Assembly: GCA_001769655.1 (NCBI GenBank) | Contig: MEPC01000002.1 | Span: forward strand, 62,001 to 126,000 | DNA: 64,000 nucleotides | From: Bacteroidetes bacterium RIFCSPLOWO2_12_FULL_37_12 | GTDB lineage: Bacteria > Bacteroidota > Bacteroidia > 2-12-FULL-37-12 | Direction of reading: 5' to 3' | Shown: piece after piece, positions 24,919 to 57,470 of the stretch | How the letters are laid out: the number at the start of each line of letters is the position of its first letter | Numbering within the stretch: the first letter of the stretch is position 1 | Position numbers and translations under genes: made by a program | Notes under the pieces: model-generated | Database searches by the model: none | The model's input: only the letters and a program-made list of their open reading frames with translations | Told to the model about the DNA's origin: nothing

Positions 24919-24972
24919 AAATACCTTTATACCCCTATACCCCTATACCCCTATACCTTCATACCTCTGCAC
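24919..24972. repeat. Short TATACCCC island
   Basis: About five units of TATACCCC or TATACCTT between the start of the TPR gene (minus) and glyS (plus). Unlike the other islands it shows only one arm, so no hairpin is evident. Confidence 0.7.
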
Positions 24973-38510: not shown

Positions 38511-39152
38511 ATGATTCACATACAACCATTTACATTCAACCCTTTTTCGGAAAACACATATATATTATATGAAGAAACGGGCGAATGTGCCATTATTGAC
38601 CCTGGTGTTTACGAGCCCTTTGAAGAAAAAGAAATAGTTGATTTCATACAATCTAAAAAACTGATTCCAAAATTATTGCTTAACACGCATTGTCATATTG
38701 ATCATGTACTTGGAAATTCGTTTGTATCCGGTAAATTTAAACTTGCATTAGCAATTCCGGAATTAGAATTACCTGTTCTCAAAGCAGTAAATTCGTATAA
38801 GAATGAATGGGGTTTTTTTAAGTATAAAGAATGTACCCCTCAAATTTTTATTAAGGAGGGAGATGTTTTTCATCTTGGGAAAAATAATTTTAAGACAATT
38901 TTTACACCCGGACATTCACCCGGTCATGTTGCTTTTTATTTAGAAAATCAAAAAATATGTATTGGTGGTGATGTATTATTTCGTGAAAGTATAGGTAGAA
39001 CGGACCTTCCGGGGGGCGACTATGATACGTTAATCAGTAGTATTAAAAATAAATTATTTCCTCTGGGGGATGATGTAAAGGTTTTCCCCGGGCATGGTCC
39101 TGAAACAACAATTGGTTATGAGAAGAAATTCAATCCGTTTGTAAAGGAATAA
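38511..39152 (+). CDS. Metallo-beta-lactamase-fold hydrolase, glyoxalase II-like
   Basis: 213 residues. The metal-binding motif THCHIDH is at 59-65 (H60, H62, D64, H65), then FTPGHSPGHVAF, GGDVLFRESIGRTDLPGGDY and FPGHGPETTIG supply further ligands. The short length and RTDLPGGD place it with the YcbL/GloB2-like hydroxyacylglutathione hydrolase-like group, which hydrolyses thioesters. Neighbours give no pathway. The start codon is only 4 bp after a TAGATTTG sequence, too near to be its promoter. Confidence 0.92.
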   Translation: MIHIQPFTFNPFSENTYILYEETGECAIIDPGVYEPFEEKEIVDFIQSKKLIPKLLLNTHCHIDHVLGNSFVSGKFKLALAIPELELPVLKAVNSYKNEWGFFKYKECTPQIFIKEGDVFHLGKNNFKTIFTPGHSPGHVAFYLENQKICIGGDVLFRESIGRTDLPGGDYDTLISSIKNKLFPLGDDVKVFPGHGPETTIGYEKKFNPFVKE

Positions 39153-39154
39153 GG

Positions 39155-39344
39155 GTATGGGGTATAAGGGTATAAAGGTGTAGCCCCCTATACCTTTATA
39201 CCCCTATACCCCTATACCCCTATACCCCTATACCCCTATATCCCTATACCCCTATACCCCTATACCCCTATACCCCTATACCCCTATACCCCTATACCCC
39301 TATATCCCTATATCCCTATATCCCTATACCCCTATACCCTTCAA
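39155..39344. repeat. Octanucleotide tandem array (TATACCCC)n with inverted leader
   Basis: A short opposite-orientation arm (GGTATGGGGTATAAGGGTAT, about 39155-39175) is followed from about 39189 by some 19 near-identical 8-bp units TATACCCC, a few with TATATCCC. The array ends 6 bp before the TRAP permease start at 39351. The unit length is 8, so changes in copy number would alter promoter or leader spacing. It is the longest island of this family here. Confidence 0.9.
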
Positions 39345-39350
39345 CATCCA

Positions 39351-40607
39351 ATGGAAACCGTCTTAATCGTTTTATTATTAATTTCTCTTTTATTTATCGG
39401 TGCCCGGCTTTTTGTTATTATCGGAGCAGTGACACTGCTGTTGTTTTTTATGTATTGTGATTTACCCATGTTTTCGCTGATAAAAAGCATGTTCGACATG
39501 TTGAATAAGTCGGCATTTCTTGCCATTCCGCTCTATGTTTTTGCCGGTGCCATCATGGCAAAAGGGGAAATAGCACGCAGATTAGTGGAATTGGCACTCG
39601 CATTGGTGGGATGGATGAGGGGTGGGCTTGCCGTGGCGAGTGTTGCGGCTTGTATGCTGTTTGCTTCTATTTCAGGATCTTCTCCGGTAACGTTGATTAC
39701 CATTGGTTCAATTATGTATCCCGCCATGCAAAAACGAAATTACCCGGACCATTTATCCATCGGGGTGATTTCAGTTGCCGGTTCACTTGGCATCCTGATA
39801 CCTCCTAGCATTCCCATGATTATTTTTTCCATTGTCACAGGCGCAAATATTAATCAACTTTTCTTAGCAGGAATTATACCGGGTGTAATTACCGGCATAT
39901 TGTTGATGGGGGTTTCCGTTTTATTGGGATTAAGATTTCAATCAGAGGTAGTTCCTTTCTCTTCCACTCAATTATGGGTGAAATTCAAAAGAGGGCTACC
40001 GGCGCTTTTTATGCCATTGCTTGTGCTTGGTGGAATATATAGCGGAATTTATACAGTGACAGAAGCCGCGGCTGTGGCGGCTGTTTACGCGCTGGTGATG
40101 GAATATTTTGTTTTTAAGGAAATGAAAGTTAAAGATATAGTAAATACATTGTACGATTCGGTAATAATTCTTGGAATTATTTTCATCATCATAGCCATGG
40201 CAACAGCATTCAATTTTTTTCTTACCGTTGAGGATGTGCCAATGCTTCTTGTAGATTTTCTTCAGTCATTTGTTACAAACAGAGTTCAATTTCTATTAAT
40301 CACTATTCTTCTATTATTGATAGTTGGTTTATTTATGGACATTATTTCTGCAATATTAATTTTAGCGCCTTTACTATTACCAACTGCTCTTGCATTTGAT
40401 GTTGACCCGGTTCAGCTTGGACTTATTTTTATTGTAGGATTAGAAATTGGTTATTTGACACCACCCATAGGCATCAATCTTTTTGTGGCAAGCGCATTAT
40501 TTAATAAGCCATTTGGTAAAGTAGTGAGCGCTTCGCTGATATTTACTTTTTGCCTATTGATTACTTTATTTCTCGTAGCTTTTTTCCCACAATTTGCGAA
40601 AATTTGA
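39351..40607 (+). CDS. TRAP transporter large permease (DctM type)
   Basis: 418 residues with about 12 hydrophobic segments, the normal DctM length. Family signatures include FAGAIMAKGEIARRLVELA, ASISGSSPVTLITIGSIMYP, SVAGSLGILIPPSIPMIIFS and GLEIGYLTPPIGINLFVAS. In TRAP systems this subunit carries the Na+-coupled substrate and works with a periplasmic binding protein (DctP) and a small membrane subunit (DctQ). Neither is next to it here: upstream is an MBL hydrolase and downstream a histidine kinase on the other strand. It could use unlinked partners. A palindrome follows the stop. Confidence 0.92.
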   Translation: METVLIVLLLISLLFIGARLFVIIGAVTLLLFFMYCDLPMFSLIKSMFDMLNKSAFLAIPLYVFAGAIMAKGEIARRLVELALALVGWMRGGLAVASVAACMLFASISGSSPVTLITIGSIMYPAMQKRNYPDHLSIGVISVAGSLGILIPPSIPMIIFSIVTGANINQLFLAGIIPGVITGILLMGVSVLLGLRFQSEVVPFSSTQLWVKFKRGLPALFMPLLVLGGIYSGIYTVTEAAAVAAVYALVMEYFVFKEMKVKDIVNTLYDSVIILGIIFIIIAMATAFNFFLTVEDVPMLLVDFLQSFVTNRVQFLLITILLLLIVGLFMDIISAILILAPLLLPTALAFDVDPVQLGLIFIVGLEIGYLTPPIGINLFVASALFNKPFGKVVSASLIFTFCLLITLFLVAFFPQFAKI

Positions 40608-57366: not shown

Positions 57367-57470
57367 GGGAGAGGTATAGGGGTATAGGGGTATAGGGGCA
57401 TATAGTTAAAGAAGTGTAAAACTTCAATATTTCCTTATACCCTATACCACTATACCTTATACCCTTTTAA
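57367..57470. repeat. TATACCCC-type repeat island with two arms
   Basis: The left arm has three GGGGTATA units (57371-57395), the right arm CTTATACCCTATACC and CCTTATACCC (about 57433-57466), separated by a T/A-rich loop. It sits upstream of mntR and next to the glycosyltransferase gene end. Confidence 0.75.

Follow-up and report, generated by a model that had tools for sequence, protein, structure and literature searches.

The array preceding dctM

The present locus raises the question of why a long tandem array of an 8-bp unit should stand immediately before the start codon of a TRAP transporter permease gene, and whether, as was originally proposed, slippage in this array could make the expression of that gene phase variable. 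Within the window, that is, the whole stretch of 64,000 nucleotides that was analysed, TRF assigned 19.4 copies of CCCCTATA to positions 39185-39339 (period 8, 94% matches, score 268), in agreement with the count of about 19 made at first sight, and the unit length of 8 bp is, as had been pointed out, not a multiple of three. The 16-mer TATACCCCTATACCCC matches 13 times in the window and not once in 100 dinucleotide-preserving shuffles, which places the array far above chance. Its description as nearly perfect needs the reservation that the unit list, where TATACCCC predominates, also holds four TATATCCC units and one TATACCTT unit. The downstream gene, dctM, is indeed a TRAP permease, of the DctM type, and its start codon (ATG 39351) is consistent with homologues. 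The array does lie just before this codon, at a distance of 11 nt (array end 39339) instead of the 6 bp initially given. The features of the locus are listed below, with the strand where one applies.

38511-39152, + strand: upstream gene, metallo-beta-lactamase-fold hydrolase (PF00753, E 2.4e-25)
39153-39183: G-rich left arm of an inverted repeat, from the sequence; predicted to form a 30-bp hairpin with the beginning of the array
39185-39339: C-rich right arm, 19.4 CCCCTATA units (TRF, unit list, fold)
39340-39350, + strand: 11-nt spacer TTCAACATCCA between the array and the dctM start codon, from the sequence
39351-40607, + strand: dctM, DctM-type TRAP transporter large permease (PF06808, E 1.6e-98)

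The interval formerly taken as array, 39155-39350, therefore holds the array only in its larger part, its beginning belonging to a complementary G-rich arm, GGGTATGGGGTATAAGGGTATAAAGG, which abuts the stop codon (39150-39152) of the hydrolase gene. When positions 39150-39350 were folded as RNA, a 30-bp hairpin was predicted at 39153-39219 (-47.9 kcal/mol, z -4.2), so that the remainder of the right arm (39220-39339, approximately 15 units) has no partner in the left arm. Therefore, the object at the dctM locus is an inverted repeat whose right arm is greatly enlarged.

With regard to the gene context, dctM follows the hydrolase gene: dctP and dctQ are located on a separate contig (C4:89301-90862), where no array adjoins them, while in several relatives dctP, dctQ and dctM are contiguous, with dctM directly last.

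A dispersed family of inverted-repeat elements

The array is not unique to this locus. In the 3.94-Mb draft genome, an exact 24-mer of the family was found 67 times against 0 for the reversed control, and a 14-mer with one mismatch allowed gave 510 matches against 1. In the 1.65 Mb sampled, which were read piecewise, 76 elements with three units or more were counted, and extrapolation from this sample gives about 180 copies per genome; since a few stretches had been picked around hits, this density is a slight overestimate. Other copies in the window are the following.

2820-2998: two-arm family copy with the common terminal sequences
24921-24965: one-arm (C-rich) family copy in a divergent gap
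57372-57465: two-arm family copy with a AACTTCAATATTTCC loop

The elements are laid out as (GGGTATAA)n - loop - (TTATACCC)n, two-arm copies typically having about 4+4 units, and four units is the commonest arm length among them. A single G run is combined with a single C run in 37 elements, and in every one of these the G-rich arm leads, the reversed order being found in none. Moreover, distant copies have their loops in common, in subfamilies represented by GGGCGTAATTATTGTATTTCCC, by GAACTTCAATATTTCC (in both orientations) and by GGTTTAGCCCC, the last of which includes the dctM copy. Only approximately 8 of the 76 copies, counted by exact match of the terminal motifs, also have common termini, ATATACTAAAAGAAAAT on one side and TTTCCGCAAACTCATTCAGCATGAGTATAT on the other, with inverted ends of approximately 7 bp (ATATACT/AGTATAT), and the sequence outside the common termini is unrelated between copies. 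The family is thus dispersed over the genome, mainly fills short gaps between genes and keeps a fixed arm order, with an arm length that depends on the copy.

With moderate confidence, the dctM array is interpreted as the enlarged arm of a single copy of an inverted-repeat element that is non-coding, intergenic and dispersed. The copies would share common ancestors and would have spread by mobilisation or gene conversion, while the right arm at the dctM locus would later have grown to 19 units through strand slippage. Common loops and termini are what the spread of a common element predicts, and are not predicted by independent slippage at each site. No mobilising gene was found linked to the elements: the two Y1 transposase genes of the IS200/RAYT-like type (L104 and L105, at C38:86994-87338 and C20:127533-127877) lie kilobases away from the nearest arrays, approximately 2.4 and 6 kb, and neither stands beside one. 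Furthermore, no Rfam match above the gathering score was obtained, the only hits being sub-threshold look-alikes of eukaryotic miRNA and snoRNA. Other short words are also strongly over-represented in the genome sample, namely AGTGACACT/AGTGGCACT and TTTTCCGGAAAA, both of them palindrome-like.

Placement between genes and structural potential

According to simple ORF calls, the elements of the 1.65-Mb sample are mainly intergenic, 50 of the gaps that hold them being co-directional, 14 divergent and 11 convergent, for 404, 142 and 62 gaps available, respectively. There is thus no bias towards divergent gaps, where promoters would lie (chi-square p = 0.34), nor an excess at convergent ends, and a terminator role was accordingly discarded. 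In the same sample, the start codons of 52 genes lie at most 60 bp from an element of the family, those of sucA, purC, ftsH, dapB, thiL and tsaC included, which argues against the switch specific to the permease that had been envisaged. Ten neighbouring genes, chosen by eye rather than randomly, were scanned, and nine could be named: 2-oxoglutarate dehydrogenase E1 (sucA), PurC, ThiL, DapB, DusB, FtsH, a threonylcarbamoyladenylate synthase (TsaC/YrdC type), arginase and the N-terminal half of a transketolase. These nine are mostly housekeeping or central metabolism genes, with no preferential association with surface or adaptive functions. Many housekeeping genes tolerate the element in front of them, so that what it does is probably, in the main, weak or structural, with a modest influence on read-through or on the stability of the message, and is not the on/off switching of dctM.

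Another role can be conceived, in which the element would be a functional boundary, a hairpin or G-quadruplex at the gene edge kept by selection for termination, message stability or insulation. As judged from sequence, the elements are predicted to be capable of both structures: a four-run G3 motif occurs in 40 of the 76, so quadruplex formation is possible, and two-arm copies most often have about four units in each arm, as many as a quadruplex requires, which is consistent with such a role. Placement points in the same direction, as single-arm arrays in co-directional gaps adjoin the upstream stop codon when the G strand is sense (median 8 nt) and the downstream start codon when the C strand is sense (median 5 nt), the two differing in distance to the start with p = 0.0002; a similar placement has been reported for the repeats of Xanthomonas and Nostoc (PMC4692102). 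Nevertheless, the bias weakens when all orientations are pooled (24 vs 11), and its simplest explanation would be geometric, single arms presumably being what is left of two-arm elements that once occupied the whole gap. Moreover, the majority of gaps have no element, and convergent ends, as stated, show no excess. The search for compensatory change between arms was also negative, the arms of one copy being less complementary to each other than permuted arms of different copies; therefore, there is no sign of selection on the stem and, if anything, perfect palindromes may be lost or fail to assemble. Taken with the favourable points, these results leave selection for a boundary function rather doubtful.

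Changes in array length

The shortest arrays of the family have 2 units and the longest at least 23. A direct comparison is offered by a pair of paralogous genes (C4:33296 and C4:35613), each preceded by a family array, of 52 and 45 bp, respectively, corresponding to seven and six units as counted by eye. Their flanks are colinear, with 84% identity upstream and 69% downstream, so that a difference of one unit goes with a flank divergence of 16-31%; short interrupted arrays do change length, therefore, but slowly relative to sequence. In long arrays slippage is plausible. As to the assembly, one family array contains a gap (a run of N) and one contig terminates in an array. The breaks of the assembly at short tandem arrays are located at the end of C4, the start of C21, the end of C38 and C38:125624-125870.

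These data bear on the original prediction of a phase-variable spacer, according to which slippage would alter promoter spacing or dctM translation and thereby switch the permease. Part of it stands, since arrays of the family do change length, and the long array immediately before the start codon, together with the breaks of assemblies within arrays, is what such a device would present. However, a phase switch specific to the permease is unsupported, because the family is dispersed before many genes and the paralogues differ by a single unit. In fact, a slippage-driven device for turning genes off is hard to reconcile with the housekeeping neighbours, the bias to promoter gaps is absent, and the length change in the paralogue pair is slow. 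In addition, the only two sigma-70-like sites near the array are intragenic, one on the reverse strand within the hydrolase gene and one within dctM, and such sites are rarer there than in shuffles, in a scan that does not cover Bacteroidetes promoters. A phase-variable dctM is therefore improbable. More generally, finding a long array in front of a start codon says little in favour of phase variation when dozens of housekeeping genes have the same array.

Other array families and other genomes

The genome also contains 7- and 8-bp arrays of other units, 146 in non-coding sequence and 27 in coding sequence, in a count where coding calls span about 90% of the sequence. Several form inverted pairs as well, with the units TTGGATG/A, AATAGAAC, GTTTCAAGTTTTAA, AACACTAAACA, ATTGTTTC and TTAAATGGTTA, and GGTTAAAT arrays are also present; examples of these other families are found in the same genome at G000:C2:51266-51405, C20:76796-76906, C42:19734-19853 and C31:12272-12323. 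Each inverted-pair family apparently keeps to one arm order. A rule placing the G-rich arm first in every array family was considered and is unsupported (26 vs 13, p = 0.05), the order looking specific to each family.

It is very improbable that each array arose by purely local slippage in a genome prone to it at 7-8 bp, with no common element ancestry: the amplification of many different units, mostly in non-coding DNA, is consistent with this, but one unit sequence dominates, the arms always come in the same order (37 to 0), distant copies have loops and termini in common and the other unit families likewise show one arm order each. Some one-arm arrays could have originated in that way; the common loops and termini of the two-arm copies argue against it for these. 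The spread of a common element thus remains the preferred reading for the family.

The genomes available for comparison belong to the same class, none being closer. A 20-mer of the family was absent from all 59 same-class relatives searched, and a looser pattern run over 395 genomes of the class found three others, with two to four matches each. One of these copies (L088), from a family of the class other than that of the window, is two-armed with the G arm first. In genome G067, a TATACCCC-type array (L087) lies amid GTTTAAGG-like repeats, which suggests that mixed arrays of octamers occur in another family of this class. Small numbers of TTGGATR and AAGTTTYAAG units recur elsewhere in the class, in other families. 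In a viral collection, a few contigs carry the pattern, among them L109 (7520-7615), with TTATACCC repeats, and L108 (343-366), with mixed GGTATA units.

Comparison with known systems

To our knowledge, intergenic arrays of heptamers or octamers have been reported singly in unrelated phyla, and we know of no agreed origin or function for them. REP/BIME elements and MITEs are short, dispersed, non-coding palindromic elements of intergenic gaps, and the present family resembles them in all these respects; unlike them, its arms are tandem octamers and no RAYT gene is linked to it. For the exact array unit, nothing relevant was found in the literature.

The nearest published case is that of the GGGNATC and GGGGA(C/T)T repeats known from Xanthomonas and Nostoc, described as quadruplex-forming intergenic heptamers, with approximately 185 dispersed intergenic arrays per genome in Xanthomonas (2-26 units, with a preference for four), 70-75 cases of convergent inverted repeats and a location near gene edges with metabolic neighbours; phase variation was explicitly judged unlikely there (PMC4692102). 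The family described here is likewise dispersed and mainly intergenic, with well over 100 arrays per genome (76 in 1.65 Mb), a four-unit preference and convergent inverted repeats (37 G-first pairs). It differs in its unit, GGGGTATA/GGGTATAA, which is mainly of 8 bp rather than a heptamer, in the phylum concerned, and in its conserved loops and termini, of which the available part of that report (PMC4692102) gives no description.

Cyanobacterial STRR are intergenic short tandem heptamer repeats capable of forming hairpins (PMC2670836), and thus alike in location and hairpin potential, although theirs are 7-bp units in cyanobacteria, while the units here are mainly of 8 bp and the nearest named relatives are Bacteroidia/Flavobacteriales. 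TAACTGA heptamers occur in Beggiatoaceae, Cyanobacteria and some Bacteroidetes, as many intergenic direct repeats near the start codons of genes of various kinds, some of them essential, with one inverted case alone reported in the main genome; other heptamer arrays were also noted in Bacteroidetes, and arrays break assemblies (PMC4679880). The present family shares with them the intergenic location near starts of diverse genes and the assembly breaks in arrays, but its unit is different and its repeats are inverted rather than direct; TAACTGA direct repeats were absent from the 1.65-Mb sample. Although it works like the heptamer repeats, the family has a different unit and is therefore assigned to none of these systems.

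Tentatively, several independent "tandem-arm hairpin" families in some Bacteroidia might have spread as mobile non-coding DNA of a class of its own, defined by arms of 7- or 8-bp repeats, a fixed order and conserved loops and ends, arm length being secondary; the heptamer arrays seen in Xanthomonas, Nostoc and Beggiatoaceae would then represent this class in other phyla. An octamer family with an extrapolated number of about 180 copies, conserved loops and ends, and several families of like design beside it makes the spread of such arrays testable.
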